Part shown: positions 6,337 through 18,601 of the stretch, in pieces
Layout of the letters: every line of letters begins with the position of its first letter
How positions within the stretch are numbered: position 1 is the stretch's first letter
Source: a virus
IMG/VR virus record: IMGVR_UViG_3300023178_000228
Coordinates: 1-26,335 of that record
Reading direction: 5' to 3' (one strand)
DNA: 26,335 nt
Position numbers and translations under genes: made by a program
The notes under the pieces: generated by a model
Told to the model about the DNA's origin: nothing
The model's input: the letters and a program-made list of their open reading frames with translations, nothing else
The model's database searches: none

Positions 6337-7122
6337 ATGAGATTATTAATTGTAGGATATGGATTTGTAGGTAAGGCAACAGAGTATCTTTTTAAAGACT
6401 CTAATGTTGAACTAGATATCCATGATCCAGCACAGGGGTATAATAATAAACACCAAGTGTATGATTATATATTTTTGTGCGTACCAACTGATTTAGATAG
6501 TGGAACTAAAAAATTAAATATTGAAACTCTTAAAACAGTATATGAAGAATGGAAAGATAAAGGGCGTACTGTCGTTAGAAGTACTATTGGTCCTGATCAA
6601 GTAGAACAATTTCCAGAAGCAATTATTATGCCGGAGTTTTTAAGAGAGAAACATTGGAAGGAAGACGTAGACGATAAAGATATACCTATCATTCTTGGCG
6701 GAGAACATGTTTGGTGTGAGCCACTATACATGAAAACTTGTACGTTAGGAAAAGGTGCTACATTTTTTGTGAGTGCCAAACAGGCTTCCATGTTTAAAAT
6801 GGCTCGTAATACTGCTTTAGCTATGAGAGTAGCATTAGCAAACGAGTTTAAAGAAATTTGTGACAGATTAGATGTTGGTTATGATGTGTTGCAAGGAATG
6901 CTTAGTCGCGACAAAGTAATTGGAGGTACACATTGGCAGGTACCTGGTCCAGACGGCAAAGTAGGTTTCGGAGGAAAATGTTTGCCAAAAGACTTGACAC
7001 ACATGAGTACTCTATGTTATAATGATTACAATATAATGGAAGATGCTGTTAAGGCTAATATGATTCGTAAAATAAGAGAAATTGGAACCATGTTAGACGC
7101 GGCCCATGCACATTTCCAGTAA
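6337..7122 (+). CDS. Short UDP-glucose/GDP-mannose 6-dehydrogenase-like protein
   Basis: The 261-residue protein matches the nucleotide-sugar dehydrogenase family, which oxidises the C6 hydroxyl of UDP- or GDP-sugars to a carboxylate with two NAD+. It starts with a Rossmann motif (LLIVGYGFVGKATEYLF), has PEFLREKHWKEDV around residue 100, and the catalytic cysteine C215 in GFGGKCLPKDL. Full-length enzymes have about 390-450 residues. Here the C-terminal UDP-binding domain is missing, and the gene ends about 45 residues after the active site. Short versions occur in marine phages, so this may be a functional reduced form. The start directly follows the previous stop. It would feed acidic sugars to the glycan genes in this window, which is inference. 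Confidence 0.88.
   Translation: MRLLIVGYGFVGKATEYLFKDSNVELDIHDPAQGYNNKHQVYDYIFLCVPTDLDSGTKKLNIETLKTVYEEWKDKGRTVVRSTIGPDQVEQFPEAIIMPEFLREKHWKEDVDDKDIPIILGGEHVWCEPLYMKTCTLGKGATFFVSAKQASMFKMARNTALAMRVALANEFKEICDRLDVGYDVLQGMLSRDKVIGGTHWQVPGPDGKVGFGGKCLPKDLTHMSTLCYNDYNIMEDAVKANMIRKIREIGTMLDAAHAHFQ
6994..7023 (+). promoter_or_regulatory. Intragenic sigma70-type promoter upstream of uvsX
   Basis: TTGACA (6994-6999) and TATAAT (7018-7023) are separated by 18 bases, and a TG one base before the -10 makes an extended -10. It sits within the last 130 bases of the dehydrogenase gene, so an mRNA from it would carry uvsX with a leader of about 100 bases. Confidence 0.6.
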
Positions 7123-13464: not shown

Positions 13465-13491
13465 AGGCTCTGCTAGCGTCTGACAGAGCCT
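13465..13491 (+). terminator. Stem-loop after the sulfotransferase-like gene
   Basis: AGGCTCTG (13465-13472) is a perfect inverted repeat of CAGAGCCT (13484-13491), with an 11-base loop. It follows the last gene of the unit and precedes the tandem promoters, the right place for a terminator. No T-run follows, so termination may be factor-dependent or the hairpin may mark a processing site. Confidence 0.55.
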
Positions 13492-13524
13492 GTAAGTCAT
13501 TGATTTCTATAGATTAATTTAGGC

Positions 13525-13553
13525 TTGACAAATACAAATTTTGGTGCTATAAT
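13525..13553 (+). promoter_or_regulatory. Sigma70-type promoter, upstream copy
   Basis: TTGACA (13525-13530) and TATAAT (13548-13553) have a 17-base spacer and a TGC extended -10. It lies 125 bases before the gene at 13678, and its transcript would run through the second promoter copy. Confidence 0.85.
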
Positions 13554-13582
13554 GTGCCTTATAAGTTATTGATACCTATAGT

Positions 13583-13610
13583 AAAAAAAAGTTGAAAAAA
13601 GTTAAAAAAA
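13583..13610 (+). promoter_or_regulatory. Phased A-tracts, UP-element-like, before the second promoter
   Basis: Three A-tracts of 6-8 bases begin at 13583, 13595 and 13604 within three consecutive 10-base units (GTA, GTTG, GTTA followed by A-runs). They end 3 bases before the -35 box. A repeat near the helical pitch should bend DNA, and the position fits an UP element for the RNA polymerase alpha subunit. Confidence 0.6.
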
Positions 13611-13613
13611 GGC

Positions 13614-13642
13614 TTGACATTTACTGAAATAGGTGCTATAAT
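13614..13642 (+). promoter_or_regulatory. Sigma70-type promoter, downstream copy
   Basis: TTGACA (13614-13619) and TATAAT (13637-13642) are separated by 17 bases with a TGC extended -10. The start would be near 13649, leaving a leader of about 29 bases before the ATG at 13678, with GTGAGGT as ribosome site. It is probably the strongest promoter of the window. Confidence 0.9.
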
Positions 13643-13677
13643 GTACGCATAAACAATGAGAAGTGAGGTTAGTGTTT

Positions 13678-13950
13678 ATGGTAAGAATTTTTGAAAAAGG
13701 TCCTAAGTTTGTTTTTGGGAAGTGTTTAGAAGCAGCCGAATGGGTATGTGGTGACTGGCCAGAAGGTCAAGGCTTTGGCTCAAGTGATAGAGCCGCAGTA
13801 TACAGATCGGCTCTTAGAGATGTAATTGGCGCTGCAAACGCTGAGAAGTTTTTTAAGCAAGAAATTGAACTCAACCCAACAGAACTAGAGTTATTTAAGA
13901 CCGGCGTATCAAACGCTATTTCAGAAGTTTTTGCTAAAGAGGCACTTTAA
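13678..13950 (+). CDS. Small protein of unknown function, first gene behind the tandem promoters
   Basis: The 90-residue protein starts at the ATG that follows GTGAGGT by 8 bases. An in-frame GTG at 13663 is less likely because it falls within that ribosome site. It is a mixed charged protein with GDWPEGQGFGSSDRAAVYRS in the middle and a helical C-terminus (ELELFKTGVSNAISEVF). I do not recognise it. There is no membrane segment and no motif. Being first behind two strong host-type promoters, it is probably an immediate-early protein, a class that in T4-like phages often contains small host-takeover factors. That role is inferred from position only. Confidence 0.7.
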   Translation: MVRIFEKGPKFVFGKCLEAAEWVCGDWPEGQGFGSSDRAAVYRSALRDVIGAANAEKFFKQEIELNPTELELFKTGVSNAISEVFAKEAL

Positions 13951-13951
13951 T

Positions 13952-14428
13952 ATGAAACTCGTTATTTGGACCCAATACAAAGAAAACTATGGCGCCCATG
14001 ATTGGGACGGCGAGGGTTCTTGCCCTCAGTACTGGAAGTTCAAGGGTGGCAGCACCTATGTGGTTCGTGACATCACGAATGCTCAAATGAACAAGATTGC
14101 TAAGGAGGGTATTCCTACTCTCACCGATCTTATCGAGTATCGTAACGAGGCTTCTGAGGAGTACATTATCTCCTGGGAGATCCTTGAGGACTCTGCTAAG
14201 GAGTGCGAGGATTGGGACTCTGTAACCGAGTTTGTTTGGAAGATGGATCGTTGGGTTTGTCAGCGCCTCACCAACAATGACGAGCATGGTTACATGCGTC
14301 GTGAAATTCTCGCCAAGAGTGAATCATGGATTCCTCTCCCACAATCAGAACGCTCAGACTATAAGTGTGAGTTCAAAACAGCTCAAGGCTGGGTAAGTCC
14401 TGAGCAATTCTCAGCTATGGTGGCATAA
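13952..14428 (+). CDS. Conserved phage protein with W/E-rich sequence, unknown
   Basis: The 158-residue protein begins MKLVIWTQYKENYGAHDWDG and continues with CPQYWKFKGGSTYVV. This N-terminal pattern looks familiar from small proteins of marine T4-like phages and some plasmids, but I know no function for it. The ATG at 13952 follows AAAGAGG by about 10 bases. It is acidic and rich in tryptophan. Codon use differs from its neighbours: GAG greatly outnumbers GAA in residues 35-95, and C-ending codons are common (CTC, ATC, TAC), while adjacent genes prefer A- and T-ending codons. This suggests a separate origin or selection for high early expression. Confidence 0.78.
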   Translation: MKLVIWTQYKENYGAHDWDGEGSCPQYWKFKGGSTYVVRDITNAQMNKIAKEGIPTLTDLIEYRNEASEEYIISWEILEDSAKECEDWDSVTEFVWKMDRWVCQRLTNNDEHGYMRREILAKSESWIPLPQSERSDYKCEFKTAQGWVSPEQFSAMVA

Positions 14429-14640: not shown

Positions 14641-14819
14641 GTATTGAACGAATTAAGGAAAAGATGGATGCAATCCGTACTGCTGAAAATTGCATTCATT
14701 CGTGCTTGTCGGTCAATCCGCAGGCTGTTGACATGGGCGTATTTGTTCTGCTCAACGAGCTTAAAATGGATCTTCTAGATATTTTAGATAAAAAATCTGA
14801 AAAAATGCTTGACTTTTAA
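14637..14819 (+). CDS. Small helical protein, unknown
   Basis: The 60-residue protein starts in an ATGA overlap with a CAGGAG ribosome site 8 bases upstream. It seems to be all helix: KEKMDAIRTAENCIHSCL, then VLLNELKMDLLDILDKKSEKM. It has two cysteines four residues apart, not a metal-site pattern. Its 3' end contains the -35 box of the next promoter (at 14809). No family is recognised. Confidence 0.6.
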   Translation: MSIERIKEKMDAIRTAENCIHSCLSVNPQAVDMGVFVLLNELKMDLLDILDKKSEKMLDF

Positions 14820-14837
14820 ATAGAAAGGTATTATAAT
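14809..14837 (+). promoter_or_regulatory. Sigma70-type promoter placed for a leaderless mRNA
   Basis: TTGACT (14809-14814) and TATAAT (14832-14837) are 17 bases apart. The next gene's ATG is at 14845, only 7 bases after the -10 box, so transcription would begin at or within a base or two of the start codon. Confidence 0.75.
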
Positions 14838-14844
14838 AGCTGTT

Positions 14845-15117
14845 ATGGATAAAAGATTATATAAATTCGCAGGTTACTCTGTCATGCCTAACGGGACTAC
14901 AAAAGCTCGTTTTTCAAATGACGTAGTAACTAGTGTAAAGAGGTTAAGGGATAATTCAGGAATTGATTTTGTTGAGTTGCCCTTTTCAATGACAAAGAAA
15001 GACGCATCAAAGTTTGCTCTTGCTATCTACAAAGAGGCAAGTGCTGATACTAAAGATGCGTTTCTCCGAGTCATTAATCGTGGAGTGCCCAAGACTAGTA
15101 GACGTAAAACTAGTTGA
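14845..15117 (+). CDS. Small conserved-type phage protein, unknown
   Basis: The 90-residue protein has the sequence type KFAGYSVMPNGTTKARFSND followed by VELPFSMTKKDASKFAL. I associate this layout with small proteins of T4-like cyanophages of unknown function. There is no ribosome site before the ATG at 14845, since the -10 box of its own promoter ends 7 bases upstream. An internal ATG at 14884 (residue 14) is an alternative start but would remove the KFAGYS strand. The C-terminus is basic (RGVPKTSRRKTS). A small strand-helix fold is likely. Confidence 0.75.
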   Translation: MDKRLYKFAGYSVMPNGTTKARFSNDVVTSVKRLRDNSGIDFVELPFSMTKKDASKFALAIYKEASADTKDAFLRVINRGVPKTSRRKTS

Positions 15118-15161: not shown

Positions 15162-15425
15162 ATGTCAACTAAGACTGTAAAAGTAAATCAGGCTGCAAAG
15201 GTACTTAACTTCCTTTCATCTGGTGCAACCCTAACTGAAAACCAGGCTCGTAAAATGTTTGGTATTCAATCCGTTGGTGCTCGAATCAACGAGCTTCGTT
15301 CAGCAGGTTACCCTGTTTATACGAATGTTACCAAGACAGGTAAGACTGTCTATCGCCTCGGTACCCCTAGCCGAGCAATGGTAGCTGCTGCTTTTGAAGC
15401 AGCTGGTGCAGGCGTTTTTAAGTAA
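15162..15425 (+). CDS. Small HTH-type DNA-binding protein
   Basis: The 87-residue protein has a winged-helix-like layout. Helix AAKVLNFLSSG is followed by TENQARKMFGI, then the recognition-helix-like SVGARINELRSAGYPVY and a beta hairpin (TNVTKTGKTVYRLG), ending in an alanine-rich helix. This is the pattern of the small 'helix-turn-helix' proteins of marine T4-like phages. It is probably an early or middle transcription regulator, and its operator is not known. The ribosome site is GGAG, 7 bases before the ATG. It sits 45 bases after the previous gene and just upstream of the tRNA region. The duplicated operator at 13494 is one possible target, which is speculation. Confidence 0.75.
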   Translation: MSTKTVKVNQAAKVLNFLSSGATLTENQARKMFGIQSVGARINELRSAGYPVYTNVTKTGKTVYRLGTPSRAMVAAAFEAAGAGVFK

Positions 15426-15520: not shown

Positions 15521-15596
15521 GCCGGATTAGCTCAGCAGGTAGAGCAGCTCACTTGTAATGAGAAGGTCGCGAGTTCGATTCTTGCATCCGGCACCA
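15521..15596 (+). tRNA. tRNA-Thr (anticodon UGU), CCA encoded
   Basis: A full cloverleaf can be folded. The acceptor stem is GCCGGAT/ATCCGGC, the D arm GCTC/GAGC, and the anticodon loop CTTGTAA with anticodon TGT at its centre. The T arm is GCGAG/CTTGC with loop TTCGATT, then discriminator A and an encoded CCA (15594-15596). The only blemish is a G-A mismatch at the top of the anticodon stem. It reads ACA codons, which suit the A-ending codon use of the phage genes. It is the only intact tRNA in the window. Confidence 0.95.
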
Positions 15597-16489: not shown

Positions 16490-17858
16490 GTTTTTAGTTG
16501 GTATACTTACCTCAGACGATATTGAGAAACTAGAAAGAGCTATACTCAATGTTAATCAGCCTTATTACAATCCTGTTGGGTTGTGGGCTGATATCGTCGT
16601 TGTAGCAAACAGTTTAGATCCAACTTACGCAGACAAAGCAAAAGAAGTAGCAGAACGAAATAAGTGTAAGTTTATTGTAACAGAATCTAATGGTACTCCT
16701 GGACAAGGTAAGCAGACCGTTCTAGATTATTTCTTAACTACACCATATGACTATCTTGTCCCTGTTGATGGTGATGATTATCTTAAAGACTTCGCTCGTA
16801 TATGTGAAATTGTTAATGAGTGGGAATGTGATGTATTAGTACAAACAAATCAGGAAACTGGTGTTGGACTAAACATTGCAGAGGACATTATACCCAGACA
16901 AGTCTTTGAAGCTAAAGAATGGGACATGGCAACAATTAAGTCATGGAAACGATTTGGTAAGGCTCTGAGGCGACACAATCACCCTGTTAAGAATGGACTC
17001 AATCGTATCCTATGCCTGTCCCAAGAGGCTGCAGGCTCCTTTAGATATCTAACACACCTGAGAGGCTCAGAGGACGTAGTAGCATCTGCAGAGCTGTACA
17101 GCATTGACAAGTTAGTAAAGCACAATACTGACGAGTTTCTTTACGTCTGGGACTACGACACAAACGGAGCTTGGGGTACCTTTATCGGCAATAAAGAAGA
17201 AATAGACAACACTATTGCTGCACTTGACGCTGTATATGAGAAACATAACTATATTGACGTCAACAGCAAATCCGATCCAAAGATGATTGTTGAATGGGCT
17301 AAATCAGCACACGCAGCAGGAGGACCTGGATCTGATATTATGTGGGATGAGGATTGGGAATCTAAATCTGAACAGTTTCTAAACAAACTATTTTATCAAA
17401 AAATTTATGACGAAGAAAACGGTGGCTTTTATACACTGTTTAAGAAAGATGGTAAAATTGTATCAGGGTGTGGTTTGAATAGACTACATGATACAGAGTA
17501 TGCTAATATTGGTACAAGGTCGTTCACTCTCCCAGAGTACAGAGGAGATACATACGATTTTTATCAGTGGTGGGTAAAAAGAACTTACGAATATATTCTA
17601 AAAAATTATCAAGGGTACATTTGGTGCTTTAATAAATACAATAAGAAGTTGTTTGAAACGAATGCTAAAATTAATGATTATAAATTAGCAGACGTTGCAC
17701 CCAACATAACAAAAGGAAGATATTTTATTCCTGCTAAAGCATGGCCACGTCTTTGTACAATTAACTACACCCCGCAATATGTAGTATATAATGACTGTCC
17801 TGGCTGTACAGGTATTGAAGGTTATCTTCAAAGTATAGACGCAGAGCATAATCAGTGA
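16482..17858 (+). CDS. GT-A glycosyltransferase with acetyltransferase-like C-terminal domain
   Basis: The 458-residue protein seems to have two parts. Residues 1 to about 250 look like a GT-A fold: FLVGILTSDDIEKLERAI at the start, strands KFIVTES and DYLVPVDGDDYL with the metal-binding DGDD at 96-99. Residues from about 300 to 420 look like a GNAT-type acyltransferase or FemAB-like domain (GGFYTLFKKDGKIVSGCGL, then RSFTLPEYRG and an aromatic-rich helix, ending in CFNKYNKKLFE). The combination would suit sugar transfer followed by acylation of the same glycan. The second-domain call is by shape of the sequence and is uncertain. The next gene overlaps its stop by 4 bases. Confidence 0.65.
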   Translation: MSRFLVGILTSDDIEKLERAILNVNQPYYNPVGLWADIVVVANSLDPTYADKAKEVAERNKCKFIVTESNGTPGQGKQTVLDYFLTTPYDYLVPVDGDDYLKDFARICEIVNEWECDVLVQTNQETGVGLNIAEDIIPRQVFEAKEWDMATIKSWKRFGKALRRHNHPVKNGLNRILCLSQEAAGSFRYLTHLRGSEDVVASAELYSIDKLVKHNTDEFLYVWDYDTNGAWGTFIGNKEEIDNTIAALDAVYEKHNYIDVNSKSDPKMIVEWAKSAHAAGGPGSDIMWDEDWESKSEQFLNKLFYQKIYDEENGGFYTLFKKDGKIVSGCGLNRLHDTEYANIGTRSFTLPEYRGDTYDFYQWWVKRTYEYILKNYQGYIWCFNKYNKKLFETNAKINDYKLADVAPNITKGRYFIPAKAWPRLCTINYTPQYVVYNDCPGCTGIEGYLQSIDAEHNQ

Positions 17859-18601
17859 AAAACATTTTCAAATTTAGTGTAGCTTCAGATTTACACATTA
17901 CCATTGGACAGTACATTAATATTCTAGGAATATTTTTGATTCCAGTTCTTATTATGAACGGAACAGCCTTTCACTGGACTATGGCTGCAATAGGGTATGT
18001 ACTTTGGAATAATTTTGGAATTTTTACAGGCTATCATAGAATAGCAGCACACAGGCAAATCAAATGCCCAGAGTGGTTTAAGAGATTTACTGCTTTGTGT
18101 GCAAACATGATGTGCTTAGGGCCGGCTTTTCATTGGGTGGCACAACACATTGCACATCATGCTCATACCGACACAGAAAAAGACCCACACTCTCCAATCC
18201 ATAAAGGTTTTTGGAATGTTGTCTTTTTTCTTCCCTATCTAACAGACGATGTCAAATACATTCACGGACGACATCTTATCACAGATCCTTTCTATAAATG
18301 GCAAGTTCAATATTATTGGCTAGTTATTATAACCTTTGCTCTTGTATTACTATTAATTGATCCATTTGCATTAGTTTACTTTTGGTTAGTCCCGGTTGGA
18401 CTATCAAGAATGACACTTGCCTATCTAACATCAGTGGTACACATGGTACCAGGCGCAACAAACAATTATTTTCTAGGTTTCATCTCAGCAGGAGAAGGCT
18501 GGCACGGAAACCACCACGACAATCCTCGATCGGTTTTATATCATGAAAAATATGACTGGTGGGGTATGATGTTAAACAAATTTTTCAATAAAAAGTCTTG
18601 A
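17855..18601 (+). CDS. Membrane acyl-CoA/acyl-lipid desaturase
   Basis: The 248-residue protein is a membrane di-iron fatty acid desaturase of the delta-9 type. Its three histidine boxes are HRIAAH (61-66), HIAHH (98-102) and HGNHH (217-221, in GEGWHGNHHDNP). Four hydrophobic segments occur (about 20-40, 42-58, 155-172 and 174-195), as expected. These enzymes insert a cis double bond into an acyl chain using O2 and electrons from ferredoxin or cytochrome b5. It starts with GTG in a GTGA overlap with the upstream gene. It is slightly shorter than bacterial relatives but has all metal ligands. It would change membrane fluidity of the infected cell. Its 3' end contains the next promoter. Confidence 0.93.
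   Translation: MKNIFKFSVASDLHITIGQYINILGIFLIPVLIMNGTAFHWTMAAIGYVLWNNFGIFTGYHRIAAHRQIKCPEWFKRFTALCANMMCLGPAFHWVAQHIAHHAHTDTEKDPHSPIHKGFWNVVFFLPYLTDDVKYIHGRHLITDPFYKWQVQYYWLVIITFALVLLLIDPFALVYFWLVPVGLSRMTLAYLTSVVHMVPGATNNYFLGFISAGEGWHGNHHDNPRSVLYHEKYDWWGMMLNKFFNKKS

Follow-up and report, generated by a model that had tools for sequence, protein, structure and literature searches.

Candidate IHF sites in helical phase with consensus sigma70 promoters of a T4-like phage fragment and other environmental phages

The early promoters pL of phage lambda and Pe of phage Mu are activated by host IHF, and this action is thought to run through DNA bending and the alpha subunit of RNA polymerase. In the lambda H' site, an A-tract arm is located approximately 8 nt 5' of the WATCAR part of the core. 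IHF recognizes a consensus within a 35-bp site and bends the DNA by more than 160 degrees, and an A-tract on the WATCAR side raises its affinity (PMC8421141). The early promoters of T4 have near-perfect -35, TGn, and -10 parts together with UP-like upstream DNA, and a T4 review describes no IHF site at them (PMC2988021). In the published work on phages Melnitz and HTVC008M, early promoters were predicted by BPROM and IHF is unmentioned. No earlier description of IHF-type phage promoters of the kind considered here was found in the open-access literature searched.

The locus described here resembles lambda pL and Mu Pe in having a host IHF site, in this case a predicted one, 5' of a sigma70 phage promoter. 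It differs from them in that the carriers are lytic T4-like and jumbo-type phages, the arrangement is repeated within genomes, and the spacing is confined to discrete values spanning one to three helical turns, with matching numbers of A-tracts. The near-perfect promoter parts and the UP-like upstream DNA are shared with the T4 early promoters, from which the locus is distinguished by a fixed IHF-type core upstream.

The window, i.e. the whole stretch of DNA analysed (26.3 kb, IMG/VR), is a fragment of a T4-like phage of the "marine-type" with genes for a family B DNA polymerase, UvsX, and a DnaB-type helicase. Two other genes in the window were recorded, one for a phage-encoded fatty acid desaturase, an unusual auxiliary metabolic gene (17855-18601; PF00487, E 5e-11), and a UDP-glucose/GDP-mannose dehydrogenase-like gene directly 5' of uvsX (6337-7122; PF00984). 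The features of the locus are collected in Table 1. The original prediction had described two 19-base elements with 16 of 19 positions identical, each lying 5' of a sigma70-type promoter, and both the positions and the identity were borne out when the sequence was read: AAGTnATTGATnnCTATAG occurs twice, as AAGTCATTGATTTCTATAG in copy 1 and AAGTTATTGATACCTATAG in copy 2, with starts 69 bp apart, and each copy precedes a promoter that matches the consensus at 12 of 12 positions. When the window was searched for the 19-mer with up to 3 mismatches, only these two matches were found, both exact, against 0.45 expected in shuffles. The two promoters, P1 and P2, were the only 12/12 consensus promoters between 12000 and 17000, and GGCTTGACA and GGTGCTATAATGT are present in each, as had been claimed. 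With a consensus -35, TGn, and -10 close 5' of a gene, they look like sigma70 early promoters of the T4 type, and judging by this promoter type they are probably used early. An 11/12 promoter at 14809-14837, which precedes a 90-aa gene at 14845, has an A-tract upstream and is without the bend element.

Table 1. Features of the tandem cassette and its surroundings (positions in the window)
Feature	Coordinates	Strand	Remarks
Stem-loop AGGCTCTG-N11-CAGAGCCT, plausible	13465..13491	+	inverted repeat, z -2.15; directly 5' of the cassette
Element, copy 1	13494..13512	+	IHF-consensus core 13493-13505, minus strand (AATCAATGACTTA); conserved in relatives
Promoter P1, TTGACA-17-TATAAT, extended TG	13525..13553	+	20-bp gap from element; predicted start ~13560
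Element, copy 2	13563..13581	+	IHF-consensus core 13562-13574, minus strand (TATCAATAACTTA); conserved in relatives
A-rich block, A-tracts in ~10-bp phase, UP-element-like	13582..13612	+	between element 2 and the -35 of P2; from sequence
Promoter P2, TTGACA-17-TATAAT, extended TG	13614..13642	+	40-bp gap from element; predicted start ~13649
First gene of the unit, 90 aa, without known family	13678..13950	+	missing at the same place in G006, G011, and G008
Second gene, 158 aa, without known family	13952..14428	+	conserved behind the cassette in relatives
HTH_39 winged-helix protein (PF14090, E 1.3e-9)	15162..15425	+	binder proposed in the original prediction; judged unlikely

The distance between element and -35, measured from the last base of TTGAT, was indeed found to differ between the copies, and the A-rich block accounts for the longer gap of P2. 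The difference amounts to two helical turns. To see this spacing in a wider sample, IMG/VR was scanned with the pattern TAAGTNNTTGAT, then 15-45 bp, then TTGAC-N18-TATAAT. At least 120 stretches carried the element with the consensus promoter, compared with 8 for the reversed-element control. The gaps of the 110 unique matches among those listed were trimodal (42 at 18-22 bp, 37 at 28-32 bp, and 27 at 39-43 bp), with none at 23-27 or 36-38 bp. After removal of similar sequences, 85 non-redundant modules remained among the matches listed, and their gaps clustered at 19-20, 29-30, and 40-41 bp with a best period of 10.55 bp (Rayleigh p approximately 2e-21); none of 2000 uniform simulations was as strongly phased. 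The reversed-element matches showed no phasing (p 0.64), and the 50 matches in 257 Gb of bacterial genomes showed none either (p 0.99), which is the chance level. When one match per DNA-linked cluster was kept, 22 cases were left, with a Rayleigh p of 0.003 at a fixed period of 10.5 bp; with the period left free, 143 of 2000 simulations reached the phasing of this set, in which the signal persists but is weak because 94 loci chain into one cluster.

The orientation of the element is fixed, with the A-tract arm towards the promoter, and each extra helical turn of spacer brings one more A-tract. In the 40-bp class (20 non-redundant modules), the spacer has three A-tracts with breaks approximately every 10 bp, as it does behind copy 2 of the window. 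A ribosome site and a start codon follow the promoter in 70 of the 85 modules, at a median of 32 nt past the -10. The 85 modules also have a common initial transcribed sequence, approximately TA at 6-7 bases past the -10 and then A-rich, which is perhaps a further early-promoter signal. The original prediction had suggested that the two copies may respond differently to one regulator as a result of their spacing. Since the insert equals two helical turns and the 20-, 30-, and 40-bp spacings are interchangeable across phages, such a differential response is unsupported. Its claim of a genuine regulatory element 5' of both promoters fared better, the element being conserved and strongly enriched 5' of sigma70-type promoters in viral DNA.

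We considered that the motif might be a mere terminator or AT-rich remnant, the promoters acting alone through A-tract UP elements; A-tracts by themselves would raise promoter strength, and some copies lie in or beside hairpins (e.g. L170 and L178). Helical phasing, fixed orientation, and base-level conservation would be unexpected of a terminator, however, and the 45 nt upstream folded scarcely more strongly than shuffles (mean z -0.58), so that we regard this explanation as very improbable. We are much surer that a protein or bend of some kind acts in helical phase with the promoter than that this protein is IHF. At five loci (L170, L178, L401, L427, and L430), the element doubles as one arm of a hairpin resembling a terminator (e.g. 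AAACCCTTGATTTTCAAGGGTTTTTTT), which combines a terminator with a bend site.

As to the protein, the conserved part of the element, TAAGTNNTTGATW, reads on the minus strand as WATCAANNACTTA, which fits the IHF consensus WATCARNNNNTTR at every position. This 13-bp core is exact in both window copies and in all relatives with the tandem cassette. The window holds five matches to WATCARNNNNTTR against 4.67 expected by chance; therefore, the consensus match alone proves nothing. In copy 2, a T-tract on the strand of the core, with the A-tract on the other strand, lies approximately 8 nt 5' of WATCAR, and the first A-tract of the A-rich block begins at 8 nt from the core, where an IHF site has its A-tract arm. 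Over 84 modules, positions 22-28 were A/T-rich, matching the A-tract side of strong IHF sites, and position 12 (W), which the search had left free, was A/T in 96%. No dyad covariation was found in the element, which argues for an asymmetric site; a dyad or hairpin reading was ruled out on this ground. Furthermore, five consensus IHF cores of the 162-kb relative G008 have this orientation and lie near promoters, and all five had gaps of 30, 30, 40, 40, and 41 bp, compared with 0.4 cores near promoters at any distance expected in shuffles. These cores were picked without selection on the GT bases, and two of the five have other bases at the N positions (CATG and ATAC). A search of 13 carriers revealed no gene for an HU/IHF homologue; the binder would therefore come from the host, and a phage-encoded HU/IHF was discarded as a candidate.

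Compared with the E. coli IHF consensus, the motif is more restricted, with a strong preference for T at the first position and for GT at the first two N. For the variant with C at the first base, which the consensus allows, 63 stretches were found with about ten clear modules and a phasing p of 0.095, an outcome that fell between the two predictions set beforehand. Non-GT variants were weakly phased (p 0.02), and variants at NNNN and at the R of TTR were in phase yet much rarer than TAAGT. This tightness beyond the consensus would also suit another helix-face-dependent activator, such as an asymmetric one of the AraC or class I type that recognizes TAAGTYRTTGATTT; the core centres, at approximately -60, -70, and -81, lie on the face used by class I activators, and the phased positions fit a regulator of that type. 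Such an activator would have to be common to many hosts, since the same site occurs in T4-like and jumbo-type phages; moreover, the constrained positions coincide with an IHF core plus A-tract arm, and the non-GT IHF cores of G008 and HTVC008M are likewise in phase. In view of the preference for GT and the first T, we hold IHF as probable and an unnamed phased factor of this kind as rather unlikely. Both elements are thus best read as putative sites at which a DNA-bending protein of the host, with IHF as the most likely one, is bound on a fixed helix face behind consensus sigma70 promoters.

The original prediction pointed to the HTH_39 protein as a possible binder. Its gene lies 1.5 kb downstream in the window and is found in G008 as well, and in the more distant relative L255 a 104-aa protein that is similar by sequence likeness adjoins the cassette. 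Nevertheless, the core matches the IHF consensus, HTH_39 was found in only 7 of the 15 records searched, fragments in which an absence is not decisive, and is missing from several module carriers, and the element is common to phages of several lineages. An operator for this or another phage-encoded HTH protein is therefore unlikely, indeed hardly to be expected. Directly 3' of the HTH_39 gene there is a tRNA-Thr (TGT) at 15521-15596.

Besides the window, the tandem cassette was found in G001, G002, G003, G006, and G011, and also in L255, which is syntenic but more distantly related. The order of the modules is constant, with the short gap (19-20 bp) first and the long gap (40 bp) second and the elements 68-69 bp apart. 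In G003, bases are changed in both copies (AATCAACAACTTA and TATCAGTAACTTA) and still fall inside the IHF consensus; G008 and its kin have a single module carrying AATCAATGACTTA. In the three relatives that lack the first gene of the unit, the cassette or module lies directly 5' of the next gene. L255 has 74% DNA identity to the window in the helicase gene and 73% over 227 columns in the cassette region, and the genes flanking its cassette differ from those of the window on both sides. Copy 2 of the window was 80-82% identical over 50 bp to modules dispersed at other places in a near-identical relative and 72% identical to copy 2 of L255, whereas its identity to copy 1 of the window was 62%. 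The pair had been described as a tandem duplication; with copy 2 nearer to the dispersed modules and to copy 2 of L255 than to copy 1, and the pair conserved as a unit, a recent duplication is not supported. The same cassette between different flanking genes in L255 argues instead for a conserved regulatory cassette, and on these comparisons the pair is an old one, maintained among shuffling genes.

The cassette is in this respect like the PeSLs, the promoter-early stem-loop cassettes of T4-type phages, as far as these are characterized where they are cited in PMC4503421, in which an early promoter and a stem-loop are kept between changing genes. It differs from the PeSLs, as so characterized, in having two promoters and two phased bend sites and in that there is little support for the stem-loop as a part kept in relatives, the covariation of its stem being no higher than in controls. 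No U-run was found 3' of it.

Absence of the element in relatives that keep the promoters had been named as evidence against the original prediction. This was observed in one respect, as at L116-L120 the downstream gene (78-80% aa) has strong promoters without the element; these promoters differ in their sequence contexts, and orthology is improbable, so that the objection held in part. At these loci (G004 and G005), which hold relatives of the gene at 13678, the other promoter contexts are uniform, AACGTGTTGACA or AAAACTATTGACA, and without the bend element; each context is a phage-specific -35 flank.

The carriers include T4-like phages with gp23 (G008, G018, G022, and G023), and phages that are closest to jumbo phages such as Phosso, GAP32, and PA5oct in their DNA polymerase, helicase, or RIIA. 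For the group to which the window belongs, the gp23 of G008 gave Methylophilales phage Melnitz (71%) and Pelagibacter phage HTVC008M (69%) as the nearest isolates. Two modules were found in the cultured HTVC008M (87303-87382 and 140246-140315). One has TAAATCGTTGAT with a gap of 39 bp and the other TAAACCGTTGAT with a gap of 29 bp; each is intergenic, ahead of a gene, and has a weaker -10 hexamer. The strict search found no module in Melnitz, in Mosig, in the two cyanophages tested, or in isolated jumbo phages; by DNA polymerase, cyanophages were the nearest isolates. Only chance matches were obtained when the cassette was compared with named phages by blastn.

The motif, one to three turns back and always on the same DNA face, suggests that the phages recruit a host DNA bender, which we infer to be IHF. 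The bound protein would bend the DNA sharply between the core and the A-tract arm, with the centre of the bend approximately 54, 64, or 75 bp 5' of the start. The bend and the phased A-tracts, as UP elements for the alpha C-terminal domains, would wrap the upstream DNA against RNA polymerase, and this wrapping, or contact by the alpha C-terminal domains, would give the early promoter a higher activity. An extra whole turn with an extra A-tract would keep the geometry, making one, two, or three turns of spacer equivalent. Element 2 begins approximately 3 bp 3' of the predicted start of P1 and overlaps its first transcribed bases; a 35-bp IHF footprint would therefore cover that start, and an occupied site 2 may favour P2 over P1. 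Such a competition between P1 and P2 through site 2 is possible. We suggest, quite tentatively, that these are widespread early promoters of environmental phages in several unrelated lytic lineages, a novel class with a strict asymmetric 14-bp element one to three turns back that serves a host nucleoid protein, the tandem form being a switch in which site 2 competes with P1.

If this reading is true, strong transcription, probably of the early kind, would depend in many uncultured lytic phages on a nucleoid protein of the host. The sequence signature would allow such promoters to be found in metagenomes and the host range to be narrowed to IHF-bearing bacteria. Furthermore, the modules would provide a natural series of helically phased promoters in which the action of a bend site on RNA polymerase at a distance could be studied.
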